Assembly: GCF_902806985.1 (NCBI RefSeq)
Contig: NZ_CADCXY010000004.1
Span: 1 to 64,000, forward strand
Direction of reading: 5' to 3'
DNA length: 64,000 nucleotides
From: Pseudidiomarina piscicola
Lineage (GTDB): Bacteria > Pseudomonadota > Gammaproteobacteria > Enterobacterales > Alteromonadaceae
Shown here: piece after piece, positions 5,629 through 26,092 of the stretch
Layout: the number at the start of each line of letters is the position of its first letter
How positions within the stretch are numbered: the first letter of the stretch is position 1
The notes under the pieces: generated by a model
The model's input: the letters and a program-made list of their open reading frames with translations, nothing else
Told to the model about the DNA's origin: nothing
Databases searched by the model: none
Translations under genes and position numbers: made by a program

Positions 5629-6551
5629 TGCCTGAGCACCCGCGCATCGCCGCAATTGACCTAGGTTCGAATAGTTTCCACCTGTTAATTGCTAAAGCGA
5701 CATCGCGGGGCTACCGCATTATTGCACGCCATCGGCAAAAGGTTCGCCTCGCCGATGGCCTTAACTCCGACCTTACCCTTAACGACGCCGCAATTGATCG
5801 CGGCGTTGAATGTTTAGCTAACTTTGCAAAGCTACTTAACGACTATCAACCTCTTCAAATCCGCTGTGTTGCCACCGCAACGCTACGGAAAGCCTGCAAC
5901 CGGCAAACCATTTTAAAGCGCTTTGAACACGCCTTAGGCACGCCTATAGACATTATTTCTGGAACTACCGAAGCGGGGCTCATTTATCAGGGTGCCACTG
6001 CCGAGCTTGCGAGTCAGCGTTCGGCAATGTTGGTATTGGATATAGGCGGCGCCAGTACCGAGGTGATTGCTGGCATCGGCACTGAACCGCATGTTTTGAA
6101 AAGTTTAGATATGGGCTGTGTGGTATGGCAAAATCAGTTTTTCAAAGACGGGCAAATTACCGAAGCACGTTTCGCTGCAGCCATTGATCAAGCAAATCAA
6201 CTCATCGCGCCCCTCGCTTCGACGTATCAAACCCATGGTTGGGATACGGTATGTGGCGCTTCAGGTACCTTTCGAGCTTTGCAAGATTGTTTACGCCATG
6301 CCCAAGCCGAAACCATGAGCGCAGCTTTCATTGACCGATGCCAGGCCCGCGCAATTGAATTAGGTAGCGTAGAAAAGTTGCACCAAATGGGTTTGCGCGA
6401 CGACCGCATCGCAGTGTTTTGTGGTGGGCTGGCAATACTTTCGGCCCTGCAAAAGAGCCTCGCTATTGCCACAGTCGATTTAGCTCAAGGCGCACTGCGC
6501 GAAGGCTTGGTACACACCATGCTGGCGGAACGCAAGCGCTCGCTTGCCTGA
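5628..6551 (+). CDS. Ppx/GppA phosphatase family protein, short form
   Basis: ASKHA-fold phosphatase of the exopolyphosphatase / pppGpp phosphohydrolase family. It has the phosphate-binding loop DLGSNSFHLLI (about 11-21) and the second loop DIGGASTEV, both needed for catalysis. At 307 residues it contains only the N-terminal Ppx-GppA domain; E. coli GppA and Ppx are about 500 residues with an HD-like C-terminal region that is absent here. Its place directly after rhlB, with a one-base overlap, is the gppA position of E. coli. Short homologues are common in marine gammaproteobacteria, so this is probably a complete gene. Whether it prefers polyphosphate or pppGpp cannot be told from sequence. 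Confidence 0.9.
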   Translation: MPEHPRIAAIDLGSNSFHLLIAKATSRGYRIIARHRQKVRLADGLNSDLTLNDAAIDRGVECLANFAKLLNDYQPLQIRCVATATLRKACNRQTILKRFEHALGTPIDIISGTTEAGLIYQGATAELASQRSAMLVLDIGGASTEVIAGIGTEPHVLKSLDMGCVVWQNQFFKDGQITEARFAAAIDQANQLIAPLASTYQTHGWDTVCGASGTFRALQDCLRHAQAETMSAAFIDRCQARAIELGSVEKLHQMGLRDDRIAVFCGGLAILSALQKSLAIATVDLAQGALREGLVHTMLAERKRSLA

Positions 6552-6559
6552 ATGAACAT

Positions 6560-7558
<999 letters not shown>

Positions 7559-19931: not shown

Positions 19932-21791
19932 ATGAGCGCACAGCATGGCAACCTAGTAAGTGAAGGCAAATGCGTTCAGTGGCAACAGTTACTCAAATCG
20001 GGAAACCGTATATTTATAGGTTCTCACGCTGCTGTCCCCCATGCGCTCATTGCTGACCTTAGTGCCCACAGTAAACACTTGCACGATATCGAAGTAGTAC
20101 AAGTGTATGCCTTAGGCGACAATAAATGGGCCAATCCAGAATACACCCAACAGTTTAAGGTGAATGCCTTATTTATTGGCGGTCAGCAGGTGCGCAAAGC
20201 TGTCGCCGAAGGACGCGCCGACTACACCCCTTGTTTTATGTCCGATATTCCCTCGCTGTTTCAAGATGGTATTTTACCGTTAGATGCGGCATTGATTATG
20301 GTCAGTCCAGCAGACAAGTATGGGTATCATTCGCTCGGCGTCTCGGTAGATATTGTCTCTGCTGCATTGCGCTCGGCGAAAAAAGTGATTGCACAAGTGA
20401 ACCCCAAAATGCCGGTCACTTTTGGTCAGGCGTTTATTCATAAAGGGCAGATTGATGCCTTTTTCGAGGCCGAAGCCGAGTTACCTGAAATTGAAGCCAC
20501 AGAGCTCGATGCTGTCACCGAGCGGATCGGCCAATATGTTTCATTGCTGATTGACGACGGCGCAACCCTGCAAATTGGCTTTGGCAATATTTGCGATGCG
20601 GTTCTGCGCTATCTTGGTAACCATCAAGACCTTGGCGTGCACAGCGAAATGATCACCGACGGCATTATGCAGTTGATGCAAGCTGGGGTGATTAACAACC
20701 GCAAAAAAACCTATCATCAGCATAAAGCCGTCACGAGTTTCTGTGTTGGCAGCAAAGCCTTATACGATTTTGTCGATGGTAATCCGCATATCGGTTTTTA
20801 TCCAAGTGAATACGTTAATTCACCTGCTAATATTGCCCGCAACGACAACATGATATCGATTAATAGCGCCATCGAAGTTGACCTGACGGGACAAGTGGTT
20901 TCGGACTCTATTGGCCATCAGTTTTATAGCGGTATTGGTGGGCATGTCGACTTCAGCCGCGGTGCGTCAATGAGTAAAGGCGGTAAACCGGTTATTGCAC
21001 TGCCGTCGACGGCGAAAGATGGCACCATCTCACGCATTGTTCCACACCTAACCGAAGGTGTTGGAGTGGCGACTTCGCGTGCTCATGTCTACTACGTGGT
21101 GACCGAGTTTGGCGTCGCCTCCTTACGCGGTAAGAGTATTCGCGAGCGAGCTTTGGAACTTATCCGCGTGGCACACCCTAAGTTTCGTCAACAGTTATTG
21201 GACGAAGTTCGCCAACACTATTATGTGCCGAACTACCAAACGCTAAAGTCCGTTGAGGTTCCTGAATTAGGCCGCGTAGGTTTCAAAAAGCTCAACATTG
21301 ATGGTCAATATTACGATTTGCGTCCACTGAACCCCAGCGACGAACGGCGTCTGCAAGAGTTCTTTTATTCGCATACCAAAGAAACCCTGCAAATGCGTTA
21401 CAACACTGTCCCGACACAAATGAGTCGCGAGAAATCATGTACTTTAGTCAGTGTCGATCAAGCCAGTGATTTAGCCCTTTGCATTGTTCGACAAAAAGGT
21501 TCAGCTGCAGAAATTCAAGCCGTTGGCCGCTATTACTATGTGCCGACCAATAACAGTTGTGAGGTCGCTTTTGTTACCCGCGAACTCCATCAAGGCAAAG
21601 GCATGGCAAGTTTATTACTCGATCAAATGATCGCTATCGCTAAGGCACGAGGTCTAGCCTTCATGGTCGCCTATGTGCGTAGTGAAAATCAAAAAATGTT
21701 AACCGTGTTTGAGCGCGCTGGCTTTCAACGTGTTCCAAGCGATGACGTAGGCGAAGTTCATCTTAAATTAGCTTTAACAGGCACCCACTAA
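19932..21791 (+). CDS. acetyl-CoA hydrolase/CoA-transferase fused to a GNAT acetyltransferase
   Basis: A two-domain protein of 619 residues. Residues ~1-430 are an acetyl-CoA hydrolase/transferase (CoA-transferase family I, two halves) with FGNICDAVLRYLG and the C-terminal half containing VVTEFGVASLRGKSIRERA. Residues ~450-615 are a GNAT fold whose acetyl-CoA-binding segment is HQGKGMASLLLDQMI. The combination predicts transfer or hydrolysis of acyl-CoA together with N-acetylation of an unknown amine or protein lysine. AAGGAGATGCA precedes the ATG, and the next gene starts 1 base after its stop, so it is co-translated with the deacetylase-family gene. The fusion is known among proteobacteria, but its role is not established. 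Confidence 0.92.
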   Translation: MSAQHGNLVSEGKCVQWQQLLKSGNRIFIGSHAAVPHALIADLSAHSKHLHDIEVVQVYALGDNKWANPEYTQQFKVNALFIGGQQVRKAVAEGRADYTPCFMSDIPSLFQDGILPLDAALIMVSPADKYGYHSLGVSVDIVSAALRSAKKVIAQVNPKMPVTFGQAFIHKGQIDAFFEAEAELPEIEATELDAVTERIGQYVSLLIDDGATLQIGFGNICDAVLRYLGNHQDLGVHSEMITDGIMQLMQAGVINNRKKTYHQHKAVTSFCVGSKALYDFVDGNPHIGFYPSEYVNSPANIARNDNMISINSAIEVDLTGQVVSDSIGHQFYSGIGGHVDFSRGASMSKGGKPVIALPSTAKDGTISRIVPHLTEGVGVATSRAHVYYVVTEFGVASLRGKSIRERALELIRVAHPKFRQQLLDEVRQHYYVPNYQTLKSVEVPELGRVGFKKLNIDGQYYDLRPLNPSDERRLQEFFYSHTKETLQMRYNTVPTQMSREKSCTLVSVDQASDLALCIVRQKGSAAEIQAVGRYYYVPTNNSCEVAFVTRELHQGKGMASLLLDQMIAIAKARGLAFMVAYVRSENQKMLTVFERAGFQRVPSDDVGEVHLKLALTGTH

Positions 21792-21792
21792 A

Positions 21793-22710
21793 ATGTCCGT
21801 CACGATTTTCAGCCATCCATCCTGTATGCAGCACCAAGTGACCGAGGTACATCCCGAAGAGCCAGCTCGCTTGAGTGCGATTAACGATCAGATCATACGG
21901 TCTGGACTGGAGCTCGCTCTGACGCAACGCGACGGACACCCGGCCAGTAAGGAACAGCTAAATCGCGCCCACGATGCCAGTTACGTCGATGAGATCTTTG
22001 CCAAGGCACCCACTGAGGGACACATTTGGCTTGACCCTGATACCTTGATGACTGAAGGCTCTTTGCAAGCTGCGCTTTATGCTGCGGGCTGTGGTATCGA
22101 TGCCGTTAATGAGGCGATGCAAGGTGCTAACCCGCGCTCGTTTTGCGTCGTGCGCCCACCCGGCCACCATGCCACTGAGAAGAAAGCGATGGGCTTTTGT
22201 ATCTTCAATAATATTGCGGTGGCTGCTCATCATGCCATGGCATGTTATGCACTTGAGCGTATTGCGATTATCGATTTCGATGTGCATCACGGTAACGGCA
22301 CCGAATCAATTTTCCTTAACGACCAGCGAGTGTTGCTATGTTCGTCATTCCAGCATCCGTTTTACCCGCACACAGGAGCTTCTACCACGCAGCCTCATAT
22401 TATTAACTGTCCGATGCCTGCCGGTACCAGCGGGAGCGAATGGCAGGCCGAAGTTAAGCAGCGTTGGCTACCAGCTTTACATCGCTTTAAACCGCAATTA
22501 ATTTTAGTGTCAGCTGGTTTTGATGGCCATAGCGAAGACGACATGGGTCAATTCAACTTGCGTGAAACAGATTATTTCTGGATAGCTGAGCAACTTAAAG
22601 GGCTAGCCGAGCAACACTGTGAAGGGCGCGTGGTGGGAATGTTAGAGGGGGGATACGACCACAGCTCTCTGGGTAGAAGTGTGGTCGCATTCATCAAGGG
22701 CTTACTTTAA
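21793..22710 (+). CDS. histone deacetylase superfamily protein (AcuC/Hda-like)
   Basis: Zinc-dependent deacylase of lysines, polyamines or other acyl amides. The 305 residues hold the full catalytic set: the histidine pair in RPPGHHA (125-126), zinc ligands D163 and H165 in DFDVHHGNGT, the third ligand D244 in SAGFDGH, and the transition-state tyrosine in LEGGYDHSSL. It starts 1 base after the CoA-transferase/GNAT gene and its 3' end overlaps the convergent acyl-CoA synthetase by four bases. The pairing with an acetyltransferase and an AMP-forming ligase resembles the Acu system of Bacillus, where AcuC reverses acetylation of acetyl-CoA synthetase. The target here is inferred, not shown. Confidence 0.93.
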   Translation: MSVTIFSHPSCMQHQVTEVHPEEPARLSAINDQIIRSGLELALTQRDGHPASKEQLNRAHDASYVDEIFAKAPTEGHIWLDPDTLMTEGSLQAALYAAGCGIDAVNEAMQGANPRSFCVVRPPGHHATEKKAMGFCIFNNIAVAAHHAMACYALERIAIIDFDVHHGNGTESIFLNDQRVLLCSSFQHPFYPHTGASTTQPHIINCPMPAGTSGSEWQAEVKQRWLPALHRFKPQLILVSAGFDGHSEDDMGQFNLRETDYFWIAEQLKGLAEQHCEGRVVGMLEGGYDHSSLGRSVVAFIKGLL

Positions 22711-24356
22711 TCGCTTTGCAGCTGACTGCGAATAAGCTTTTTATCAATTTTCCCAACACTGGTACGTGGTATCTCATCGACCACTTTAATGGTATCTGGT
22801 ACCGCCCACTTTTCGATGACACCGTCGTCGATAAAGTTTTGCATAAACTGCACCACGGCGTCGTGATCCACCGTTGCTCCTTCTCGAACTGTCACCACAG
22901 CATGCGGCCGCTCTCCCCATTCATCGTCAGGTAAACCGATCACCGCAGCAAGCTCAATATCGGAGTGTTGGCTAATCAAGTTTTCGATGTCGAGCGACGA
23001 CACCCATTCGCCCCCAGTCTTAATCACATCTTTGATACGGTCTTTGATTTGCAGCGTGTAGCCACTATCAATGCTGCCGACATCTCCCGTGTGCATCCAG
23101 CCATTCGCCCATAACTCTTCGCTTTTTTCCGGCTCATGCAAATAGCCTTGAGTTAACCATGGGGTGCGCACCACAACTTCACCCATCGCTTCGCCATCAT
23201 GGGGTAGGAAGCGACCATTGGTATCAATAATTCGCATATTCACCAAGGGCACAGGTTTACCGGTTTTCACACGCGTTTGTACCTGCTCAGAGGTGTCAAA
23301 GTCTGCCGCGTTACGCGGTAACCAGGTTGTGCTTAGCAGCGGGCACGTTTCTGACATACCGTAGCCAGTATAAATTTGGATTCCGCGATCTAAGGCGGCT
23401 TTGGCTAACCCTTCGGTCAGCGCACTACCGCCGATCAATACCTGCCAACCGCTGAAGTCAATCGCTTTGGCCTGCTCACTGCTAAGTACCATTTGTAAAA
23501 TGGTAGGCACACAATGCGAGAACGATACCTGCTCGCTCACAAACAGCTTTAACAGTGTCGCAGGTTCGTAACGCCCTGGATAAACTTGCTTTAAGCCCAT
23601 CATGGTTGCGACATAAGGTACGCCCCATGCGTGCACGTGAAACATGGGTGTGATCGGCATATAAACACTCGACGACTGCATCAATTGCATGTTGTCGTTC
23701 ATACTGGTGGTCGAAGCCAACGCTAAGGTATGCAATACCAATTGCCGGTGTGAAAAATAAACGCCTTTCGGATTACCGGTGGTGCCGGTCGTGTAAAAGG
23801 TCGTAGCAACCGCATTTTCATCAAAGTCAGGGAAGTCAAACTCAGTCATTGCGCCGGCGAGTAAACCTTCATAGTCACCAATCGTTTCCAGCGGTGCTTC
23901 AGGTGCCTGCGCTTGATCGGTTAGCTGCATATAGCTTTTAACTGTGGTGAGCTGGTCTTTAACTTGCGCCAACAACGGCAGAAAATCGTCATGGGCTAAT
24001 ACTAAATCGTCCTGTGCATGATTCATGGTGTACACGATCTGCTCAGGCGCTAAGCGTACATTAACCGTATGCAAAACCGCACCGATCATGGGTACCGCGA
24101 AAAAGCATTCCAAGTAGCGCGGGGTATCCCAGTCCAACACGGCAACGGTGTCGCCTTCTTTTATTCCTGCCTCAGTTAACACATTTGCCAAGCGGTTCAC
24201 CCGTTCAACAAACTCGGCATAGCTAAAACGTTGTCCGTTATTGCCTCCAACGATTTCGTTATCGCCAGCGTAGCGTTCGGCTGATAGCAGTAGTTGCTTG
24301 ATGAGCAACGGGTAGTTATAAGCGTCGTCGGCAGGTGGAATGAGTTTAACAGCCAT
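22707..24356 (-). CDS. AMP-forming fatty-acid/acyl-CoA synthetase
   Basis: ANL-superfamily ligase that activates a carboxylic acid with ATP and couples it to CoA. In 549 residues it shows the P-loop YTTGTTGNPKGVY, the A5 motif YGMSETCPL, MHTGDVGSID, the hinge IKDRIKDVIKTGGEWVS and the C-terminal A10 motif PRTSVGKIDKK. The lysine in that motif (K536) is catalytic and is the site acetylated in regulated ANL enzymes. The medium/long-chain subgroup (FadD/alkK-like) fits best. It converges on the deacetylase gene with a four-base overlap, and repeat element B lies between its start and the upstream GNAT-nitrilase gene. Confidence 0.93.
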   Translation of the reverse strand: MAVKLIPPADDAYNYPLLIKQLLLSAERYAGDNEIVGGNNGQRFSYAEFVERVNRLANVLTEAGIKEGDTVAVLDWDTPRYLECFFAVPMIGAVLHTVNVRLAPEQIVYTMNHAQDDLVLAHDDFLPLLAQVKDQLTTVKSYMQLTDQAQAPEAPLETIGDYEGLLAGAMTEFDFPDFDENAVATTFYTTGTTGNPKGVYFSHRQLVLHTLALASTTSMNDNMQLMQSSSVYMPITPMFHVHAWGVPYVATMMGLKQVYPGRYEPATLLKLFVSEQVSFSHCVPTILQMVLSSEQAKAIDFSGWQVLIGGSALTEGLAKAALDRGIQIYTGYGMSETCPLLSTTWLPRNAADFDTSEQVQTRVKTGKPVPLVNMRIIDTNGRFLPHDGEAMGEVVVRTPWLTQGYLHEPEKSEELWANGWMHTGDVGSIDSGYTLQIKDRIKDVIKTGGEWVSSLDIENLISQHSDIELAAVIGLPDDEWGERPHAVVTVREGATVDHDAVVQFMQNFIDDGVIEKWAVPDTIKVVDEIPRTSVGKIDKKLIRSQLQSD

Positions 24357-24484: not shown

Positions 24485-26008
24485 CTACCACTTTCTGGTG
24501 ACTTCGTAGATGTCTGTTCGTCTATCTTTTAAATTGGTAACCGACCCCTCATGATGTAAATACCGTAATTCGTCTAAATTTAGATCAGAGAAAATCAGTT
24601 GTTCGGTATTCGGCGTTGTCTCTGCCAAAATTGCATCATAAGGGAACGCAAAGTCTGACGGCGAAAATACCGCTGACTGAGCATACTGTACATCGAGACT
24701 TTCCACTTGCGGCAAGTTACCCACACTACCGCAGGTGACCACATAACATTCGTTTTCTACCGCTCGTGCCTGCGCGCAATGACGAACACGCAAATACGCA
24801 TTCTGTGTATCTGTCCAAAAGGGCACGAACAATATCTCTAAGCCTTCAGCGGCCATCAGTCGGCCCAGCTCTGGGAACTCGACATCGTAACAAATTAGAA
24901 TGCCGACTTTACCCGCATCAGTATCGAACACCTGTACATGGTTGCCGCCCTCGATGACCCAGTCGCGCTTTTCGTGCGGGGTTACATGAATTTTACGCTG
25001 CTCTTCAACCGTGCCATCTCGACGACATAGATAAGACACATTATAGATAACGTCGTCTTCATCGAGGGGCATTGAACCGGTGATAATGTTGATATTGTAA
25101 CTCACAGCCATTTGCGACATCTCGCGCTTAAAGCGCTCGGTATAACCGGCTAAGAAGCGAATCGCATCTTTTTGTTGGCTTTGATCAGTGAGCCCCATTA
25201 AAGGCGCATTGAAGAACTCCGGAAACACCGCAAAGTCACTTTGATAGTTCGACATCGCATCGACAAAATACTCCACTTGCTTAAGCATCTCTTCAACAGA
25301 ATCGATTTCTCGCATTTGCCACTGCACCGCTCCAATTCGAACATTTCGAATTCGGCTTCCCAAAATGTTATCTGATGGCTCATAGAGGAAATTATTCCAC
25401 TCTAGCAATGTGGCAAAGCCTTCCGAGCGTTTGTCTTCAGGCAGATACTTACCTAACAGCCGCTTCACGGTGAAGTCATTGGCGAGCTGGAAGGTTAAAA
25501 TGGGGTCGTAAATTTCACGCCGGTGAACCCCTTCAATATATTGTCCGGGGGTTAAGTCGTCGGTGTATTTATGGAAATTAACGATGCGACCACCGGCTAA
25601 AATTGCCTTCAGATTTAACTGCCGACAGAGCTCTTTTCGTGCATCATAAAGCCGGCGCCCAAGCCGGAATCCTCGGTAGTCAGGATGAATCAAAACGTCT
25701 AAGCCGTATAACGCATCGCCTTTACGGTCATTGAGAATATTCTCGCGCGCGTCCATCAAATCGTCATAGGTGTGCGGGTTGCTAAAGCGTGCGTATTTTA
25801 CTCGAACCGTTAACGCAACGCCCACGAGTTGGCCGTTATCCTCAAGTAAGATTTGGCCTTCGGGAAATTCTTTTACCAATTTAAGGATGGTGTGTTCACC
25901 CCAGGCGCCGCCGATATCCGGATAAACCTTATCCATCAACGCCTTTAGTTGGGGGTAGTCTTCGTTGCGCAAATTGCGTAATTGCAAATGCAGTTCATCT
26001 GGGCTCAT
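24485..26008 (-). CDS. GNAT domain fused to a nitrilase-family carbon-nitrogen hydrolase
   Basis: 507 residues from the ATG at 26008, chosen because AAAGGA lies 5 bases before it; an ATG at 26014 would place the same AAAGG directly against the start. Residues ~8-205 form a GNAT acetyltransferase-like domain (LIHPDYRGFRLGRRLYDAR is the acetyl-CoA-binding segment). Residues ~225-500 form a nitrilase-superfamily amidohydrolase with the catalytic triad Glu (AVFPEFFNAP), Lys (EQRKIHVTPHEK) and Cys (GILICYDVEFPEL). The fusion occurs widely in bacteria, with no settled substrate; a deamidating or N-acyl-transfer reaction is plausible. It lies upstream of the acyl-CoA synthetase on the same strand with 128 bases between, filled by repeat B. 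Confidence 0.91.
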   Translation of the reverse strand: MSPDELHLQLRNLRNEDYPQLKALMDKVYPDIGGAWGEHTILKLVKEFPEGQILLEDNGQLVGVALTVRVKYARFSNPHTYDDLMDARENILNDRKGDALYGLDVLIHPDYRGFRLGRRLYDARKELCRQLNLKAILAGGRIVNFHKYTDDLTPGQYIEGVHRREIYDPILTFQLANDFTVKRLLGKYLPEDKRSEGFATLLEWNNFLYEPSDNILGSRIRNVRIGAVQWQMREIDSVEEMLKQVEYFVDAMSNYQSDFAVFPEFFNAPLMGLTDQSQQKDAIRFLAGYTERFKREMSQMAVSYNINIITGSMPLDEDDVIYNVSYLCRRDGTVEEQRKIHVTPHEKRDWVIEGGNHVQVFDTDAGKVGILICYDVEFPELGRLMAAEGLEILFVPFWTDTQNAYLRVRHCAQARAVENECYVVTCGSVGNLPQVESLDVQYAQSAVFSPSDFAFPYDAILAETTPNTEQLIFSDLNLDELRYLHHEGSVTNLKDRRTDIYEVTRKW

Positions 26009-26092
26009 AGACATCCTTTGTAATCCTTAGTACAACATAGAACTAGTATGACGAAGTCGCAGTAATTGGCAACAACCAATAGACTTTAGCTA

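Follow-up and report, generated by a model that had tools for sequence, protein, structure and literature searches.

The CoA-transferase–GNAT fusion and its neighbours

We analysed a stretch of 64,000 nucleotides from Pseudidiomarina piscicola (contig NZ_CADCXY010000004.1, positions 1 to 64,000 of the forward strand; the window), and within it a gene for a fusion of a CoA-transferase with a GNAT acetyltransferase domain, a gene for a histone deacetylase (HDAC)-family protein that directly follows it, and a ligase gene on the other side of the latter. In the 2.51-Mb genome these three genes are carried on contig C4. The fusion (19932..21791, plus strand; open reading frame, Pfam and AlphaFold2 model) has 619 residues and is the proposed lysine acyltransferase, or writer. 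The zinc-dependent HDAC-family deacylase (21793..22710, plus strand; PF00850) has 305 residues and is the proposed eraser. The ligase (22707..24356, minus strand; open reading frame and Pfam) is an AasS-like ANL enzyme of 549 residues, which probably lies outside the conserved unit. By reading of the sequence, one base separates the fusion and HDAC genes, and the HDAC and ligase genes are convergent and share four bases (22707-22710). The three open reading frames, the one-base gap and the convergent overlap had been described in an earlier, sequence-only reading of the window, as had a complete HDAC fold and a PRTSVGKIDKK motif in the ligase, and all of these were found.

Pfam placed AcetylCoA_hydro and AcetylCoA_hyd_C (PF02550, PF13336) at residues 15-176 and 273-425 of the fusion, and a GNAT domain at residues 463-599. 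The CoA-transferase domain (residues 1 to approximately 433; 19932..21230, plus strand) is of the 4-hydroxybutyrate CoA-transferase type: enzymes of this type are its nearest solved homologues by sequence, and two of them, 3gk7 and 2oas, were the top fold matches of an AlphaFold2 model of the whole fusion (pLDDT 87.3, pTM 0.82). E239 (codon 20646..20648, plus strand) aligns with E238 of chain 3gk7, which we take to be the catalytic glutamate. Across the aligned fusions this position is E in 41 of 42 sequences and D in one; locus L043 was left out of the alignments, as the stretch used contained a stop. The genome encodes also a second CoA-transferase, GNAT-less and 49% identical (G000:C6:90306-91535, L011). 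The NCBI annotation pipeline has a product name for the fusion, which is not known to carry a function.

The GNAT domain (residues 446-619; 21267..21791, plus strand) was assigned to the Pat (protein lysine acetyltransferase) type by sequence and fold matches. Nine distinct PDB chains matched it by sequence, eight of them Pat-type (S. lividans Pat, E. coli PatZ and two mycobacterial Pats). When an AlphaFold2 model of the domain (pLDDT 84.1, pTM 0.82) was searched with Foldseek, the best eight matches were E. coli PatZ, S. lividans Pat and mycobacterial Pat (E 2.1e-16 to 6.1e-10), and one of the S. lividans entries had been solved together with the C-terminal domain of Acs. E544 (codon 21561..21563, plus strand), the proposed general base, falls on the glutamate of Pat in the alignment and does not vary among the 42 fusions; its equation with E234 of MSMEG_5458, the residue named in the consulted part of PMC8556138, assumes a seven-residue tag in chain 4orf. 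The CoA-binding P-loop is kept in most fusions, as G occupies position 555 in 33/42 and position 557 in 38/42. Sequence and predicted fold together support a GNAT arm of the Pat kind. The fusion as a whole is not classed as a type I Pat, because Pfam identifies CoA-transferase domains at its N-terminus. It matches none of the five GNAT arrangements (types I-V) described in the accessible sections of PMC8556138 and PMC11254643, where no type includes a CoA-transferase domain. In the portions of the open-licence literature that we consulted we found no description of a CoA-transferase–GNAT lysine acetyltransferase or of a Pat–HDAC neighbourhood, but published descriptions may exist elsewhere.

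The Hist_deacetyl profile (PF00850) covered the HDAC protein almost end to end (profile positions 1-297 of 298, E 4.1e-85), and this gene is the sole PF00850 match in the genome. Its best solved match is chain 5ji5 (E 3.2e-99), followed by HDAC6. The classical motifs of zinc-dependent deacylases, HH, D-H-D, GFC and GGY, are all present. Invariant across 28 aligned HDAC sequences are the double-His motif H125-H126 (codons 22165..22170), D163 and H165 (codons D163 to H165, 22279..22287), D244 (22522..22524) and Y288 (22654..22656), all encoded on the plus strand, as well as G134-F135-C136 and G286-G287-Y288. D163 and H165 would be two of the zinc ligands and D244 the third, and Y288 of the EGGY motif would be the catalytic tyrosine, following the roles of the D-H-D and tyrosine motifs in the consulted part of PMC11532494. 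In the alignment the protein has DMG where HDAC6 domain 1 shows PKG; HDAC10 carries a PEG gatekeeper, according to a passage of the same paper. On our reading of its motifs, RPP and EGGY among them, it belongs to the classical zinc deacylases and differs from AcuC.

In the ligase, Pfam identified AMP-binding and AMP-binding_C. The nearest solved relative is Vibrio harveyi AasS, an acyl-ACP (acyl carrier protein) synthetase (E 3e-190), and the next different solved protein is a long-chain acyl-CoA synthetase (E 2.2e-109); the ligase passes also an NCBIfam acyl-CoA ligase subfamily model. The name acyl-CoA synthetase, given in the sequence-only reading, thus calls for caution, as the enzyme may use either CoA or ACP. 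The lysine of the PRTSVGKIDKK stretch, K536 (codon 22749..22751, minus strand), is that of the PX4GK motif and corresponds in the alignment to K522 of AasS (offset 14). According to the part of PMC11271967 available to us, K522 is in contact with the adenylate and W230 has a counterpart in an acyl-CoA synthetase; both positions are retained in the window ligase. In this genome the PX4GK motif occurs in at least four ANL genes, namely the window ligase, an acyl-CoA-ligase-like gene on contig C5, a gene on C2 and, on C3, a true Acs, which bears PKTRSGKIMRR and exceeds the threshold set for the NCBIfam equivalog model of acetate--CoA ligase. As the motif is shared by at least four ANL genes, Acs included, motif and neighbourhood do not single out the window ligase, which on its sequence could be one substrate in trans among several.

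Conservation of the pair and of the ligase

A scan of contigs yielded 73 loci with relatives of the fusion, of which 54 are gammaproteobacterial by title (L049-L101 and L106), 17 are from other bacteria and archaea, and two (L119, L120) have the CoA-transferase alone and were left out of the fusion counts. As the scan looked for short peptide patterns taken from the query, it is biased to close relatives; the closest were from Pseudidiomarina, with up to 91% protein identity. In all 54 gammaproteobacterial loci an HDAC gene directly followed the fusion on the same strand, the two matches lying at most 54 bases apart. We also searched a sample of 197 genomes of the order; here, as in the class-sample search for the fusion and the family search for the ligase described below, only the top candidates per genome were scored. 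Eleven of these genomes carried a full fusion, ten of them with an adjoining HDAC gene. A close HDAC (at least 43% identity) was found in 10/11 fusion genomes vs 11/186 others (Fisher p 1.9e-10, a value which, like all our co-occurrence statistics, the other Fisher tests and the chance estimate included, ignores kinship). The 62 fusion/HDAC pairs that could be measured with crude picking of open reading frames (53 of the 54 scan loci, L078 being left out, and nine other loci from the order) were all on the same strand, with gaps of -49 to 63 bases and a median of one base. They lie in 35 crudely defined combinations of upstream and downstream neighbour clusters, three of which include a contig edge.

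The ligase showed a different pattern. It followed the HDAC gene in nine of the 54 gammaproteobacterial loci, all titled Pseudidiomarina, and was not adjoining in five further loci with that title; L078 and L083 end too early past the HDAC gene to judge. Two Aliidiomarina loci (L080, L084) have a different ANL gene upstream, at 27-28% identity. In a family search over 196 genomes, with up to four candidates scored in each, a ligase of at least 77% identity was found in 7/7 genomes of the own genus and in no other genome among the matches listed, where the remaining ligase-type proteins were 34-41% identical. Of the seven, three have the HDAC gene adjacent to the ligase (G000, G575, G507) and three have it elsewhere (G544, G604, G643); in the seventh, G624, with 4 of 8 candidates scored, the ligase was detected but no HDAC gene. 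Hence the adjacency of fusion and HDAC is beyond chance and that of the ligase is not. As the pair is conserved and the adjacency of the ligase is restricted, we regard the pair as the unit and the ligase as a local, probably chance neighbour. The sequence-only reading had joined all three genes into a self-contained switch with the neighbouring ligase as its target. Its three-family neighbourhood survives for the fusion and the HDAC gene (54/54 loci) and fails for the ligase (9/54 loci, and 3/6 own-genus genomes with both genes), and with it the self-contained three-gene switch falls.

The 17 fusions from outside the Gammaproteobacteria are 41-45% identical to the query and come from Lokiarchaeota, another archaeal bin, Hydrogenedentes, and deltaproteobacterial and unassigned bins, which may contain foreign contigs. 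On the CoA-transferase domain, the hypothesis that all fusions share one origin could not be rejected (p-AU 0.518); this does not prove it. In three Hydrogenedentes loci (L108, L109, L121) the fusion comes after a GNAT-less NDP-forming acyl-CoA synthetase of approximately 700 residues (Pfam was run on the L121 copy), the kind of module that is fused to the GNAT in type I Pat. The lokiarchaeal loci (L110-L117) have the CoA-transferase–GNAT fusion mostly in a common gene neighbourhood, with no HDAC match.

Pat and sirtuins in genomes with the deacylase

The 21 order genomes with a close HDAC comprise ten with the fusion and 11 without it. Nine of these 11 belong to one genus, and in all of them (9/9) the HDAC gene is adjoined by a convergent gene for a type I Pat; in G061 the Pat gene is truncated by the contig end, with the GNAT part remaining, and Pfam confirmed the Pat architecture in the two copies checked. 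Strong Pat matches (PF13549, E < 1e-50) were present in 81 of the 197 order genomes, 80 with a frame of at least 860 residues, and were distributed as 0/11 fusion genomes vs 81/186 others (p 0.003, among the matches listed).

A similar association was seen in a class sample of 293 gammaproteobacterial genomes, among which the full fusion (E <= 1e-100) was found only in the own genome, and the HDAC subfamily (E <= 1e-60) in 77, the own genome included. We took all 78 HDAC loci from the 76 other genomes, requesting 12 kb for each. A two-part Pat lies within approximately 3.1 kb of the HDAC gene in 28 of them (crude chance estimate ~5e-49), in divergent (21), codirectional (4) or convergent (3) orientation, L171 being cut by a contig end. 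In three of these loci Pat runs straight into the HDAC gene, with a four-base overlap in L145 and three bases apart in L169 and L170, which is the layout of fusion and HDAC in the window. The synthetase part alone adjoins the HDAC gene, near a contig end, in L156 and L175, and lies 4.7 kb from it in L210. Full-length Pat was present in 51/76 HDAC genomes vs 14/216 others (p 3e-25). In the Pat counts PF13549 matches weaker than 1e-50 were dropped, and in the class co-occurrence also frames shorter than approximately 850 residues. The HDAC subfamily is thus tied to Pat by both neighbourhood and co-occurrence, and at the window locus and its relatives the fusion apparently stands in for Pat. A third kind of acetyltransferase partner for the HDAC was seen in L157, where a stand-alone Pat-type GNAT (~6440-7080, an open stretch of 214 residues) is divergent and 113 bases away. 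One genome, G244, has two HDAC copies, each adjoining its own Pat (L146, L165). A derivation of the fused GNAT from HDAC-adjacent Pat was considered and is unsupported: 30 gammaproteobacterial fused GNATs form one clade and 35 Pat GNATs lie apart, with long branches and unsettled bootstrap.

A genome search found no SIR2 in the own genome. Among the matches listed, to which all SIR2 counts refer, SIR2 was present in 162/197 order genomes, with a distribution of 5/11 fusion genomes vs 157/186 others (p 0.005) and of 8/21 close-HDAC genomes vs 154/176 others (p 1.6e-6). Within the own family (14 order-sample genomes), all five SIR2-less genomes carry the fusion–HDAC pair, as do four of the nine that have SIR2. 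This pattern fits an HDAC that does the work of CobB in some genomes, rather than as a rule.

A proposed writer–eraser pair and its alternatives

We consider it likely that the fusion and the HDAC gene form a two-gene operon, by which lysine acylation is written and erased again. Transcribed together, as we infer, the two genes would provide a GNAT domain that moves an acyl group from acyl-CoA onto lysines of target enzymes, and an HDAC that hydrolyses the mark without NAD+, taking the job of CobB in a SIR2-less genome. It is established that Pat-type GNATs acetylate the lysine of PX4GK, a motif named in PMC11619455, and so switch ANL ligases off, and that sirtuins or zinc deacylases reverse this; Pat/KatA and the HDAC-type LdaA of R. 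palustris act in this way on many ANL synthetases (PMC6640162), and AcuC acts on AcsA (PMC11532494). Because of this precedent, and because PX4GK occurs in at least four ANL genes, a true Acs among them, we propose a pair that acts in trans. Its main targets would be PX4GK-bearing ANL ligases anywhere in the genome, Acs above all, and the adjacent AasS-like ligase would be at most one target of several. The CoA-transferase domain, which takes the place of the acyl-CoA-synthetase domain of Pat, may serve in sensing or in making the donor. The assignment of writer and eraser in the sequence-only reading gains from the Pat-kind GNAT, the kept HDAC residues and the tie of the HDAC subfamily to Pat; the neighbouring ligase as dedicated partner does not.

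The proposed system would work like Pat/CobB and AcuA/AcuC control, by analogy, and is a member of neither. With Pat it shares a C-terminal GNAT of the same kind, a large N-terminal module from a family that handles CoA esters, and the HDAC, relatives of which adjoin Pat genes; the CoA-transferase of the fusion keeps the aligned Glu, whereas the Pat module is described in the consulted part of PMC8556138 as inactive but acetyl-CoA-binding. As in Bacillus AcuA-AcuB-AcuC with AcsA, linked GNAT and HDAC genes have an ANL ligase gene alongside on the opposite strand in the window, but here the GNAT is fused and the link to the ligase is not conserved. Membership in AcuABC was ruled out by the HDAC motifs, RPPGHH and EGGY, as compared with GGGLHH and GGGY of AcuC (cluster 2) in the available sections of PMC11532494; no AcuB was seen among the neighbouring genes scanned, a genome-wide search for it not having been made. 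The Rhodopseudomonas system of RpPat/KatA and LdaA is alike in having a GNAT and a zinc deacylase that serve many ANL synthetases in trans (as excerpted from PMC6640162), although RpPat, according to PMC8556138, is of type IV and consists of the GNAT alone. V. harveyi AasS is related to the window ligase as its nearest solved relative, but it is not part of the proposed unit, and the acyl-CoA ligase NCBIfam model matches that ligase too.

Several observations weigh against the proposed writer–eraser pair. None of the 17 non-gammaproteobacterial fusions has such an HDAC beside it (three have short flanks), and G013, an 85% complete assembly (L045), is the sole fusion genome of the order sample in which no HDAC was detected. 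Conversely, two order genomes (G110, G039) have a close HDAC with neither partner adjoining, and the flanks taken for 46 of the 78 class HDAC loci lack any match to Pat, GNAT, CoA-transferase or AasS-type genes (11 of the 46 are shorter than 12 kb), so that the HDAC may have other roles. Five of the 11 fusion genomes carry SIR2 as well. The Foldseek ranking places other GNATs directly after rank 8 (6.1e-10), from rank 9 at 7.3e-10, and in the GNAT tree the fused domains group separately from Pat, as a clade with a long branch. The neglect of kinship in the statistics counts here, too.

Three other explanations were weighed. The CoA-transferase might be mainly metabolic, carrying out short-chain acyl-CoA:acetate CoA transfer, with the GNAT and HDAC regulating their own pathway only. 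The near-invariant E239 (E in 41/42 fusions) and the 4-hydroxybutyrate CoA-transferases as nearest solved homologues speak for such an enzyme, but the HDAC is the only neighbour cluster common to all contexts, so that no pathway travels with the fusion, and the second, GNAT-less CoA-transferase of the genome could serve metabolism; we regard this explanation as unlikely. It is more improbable still that the GNAT and HDAC acetylate and deacetylate a small metabolite, e.g., a polyamine, beside a CoA-transferase step. Bacterial HDACs do include polyamine deacetylases (PMC11532494, in the part consulted), the weaker fold matches of the GNAT include SpeG, which acetylates polyamines, and the kept Glu of the CoA-transferase suggests metabolism over pure sensing. 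However, the best fold match is PatZ at 2.1e-16 vs 2.1e-9 to 2.3e-9 for SpeG (rank 23), the HDAC has DMG in place of the PKG of HDAC6 domain 1 or the PEG gatekeeper noted above for HDAC10, and its subfamily is tied to Pat. Least credible, and hardly to be expected on the present data, is the self-contained three-gene switch with K536 of the neighbouring ligase as dedicated target. The PRTSVGK of the ligase does fit PX4GK, with K536 at the position of AasS K522, and both the window and nine Pseudidiomarina loci have the three genes side by side. Yet the ligase is not beside the pair in 45/54 gammaproteobacterial loci (including the two that end too early to judge) and is away from it in 3/6 own-genus genomes, G624 has the ligase and no detected HDAC, ligase-type matches outside the genus are 34-41% identical among those listed, and other ANL genes of the genome, Acs included, bear the motif.

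If this reading is correct, the writer would have an architecture outside the five types in the consulted parts of PMC8556138 and PMC11254643, its attached module being a metabolic CoA-transferase, and if the CoA-transferase is active the same protein could make the donor acyl group. The tie of the HDAC subfamily to Pat suggests a testable job for the deacylase in the 77/293 sampled gammaproteobacterial genomes. A broader scenario, which we offer as speculative and rather doubtful, is that of a sixth architecture of bacterial lysine acyltransferase. Here a live CoA-transferase joined to a Pat-type GNAT would swap CoA between short-chain acids and so set which acyl group is placed on lysines, and the gene one base away would encode a dedicated eraser that needs no NAD+. 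This arrangement would have replaced control of the Pat/CobB kind in Alteromonadaceae and their relatives, with homologous fusions in Asgard archaeal, Hydrogenedentes and deltaproteobacterial bins.

As for the surroundings of the three genes, a scan for promoters and terminators returned fewer sites than shuffled sequence, and a terminator-like site at 22715-22732, directly past the HDAC gene, does not count as evidence. A plasmid search with the fusion matched 33 records, none spanning 80% of it, and PADLOC gave 0 matches in the search made. Immediately upstream of the ligase, on the same strand, lies a second GNAT fusion (GNAT and carbon-nitrogen hydrolase; 24485-26014, minus strand), which accompanies the ligase in all nine ligase-bearing Pseudidiomarina loci.

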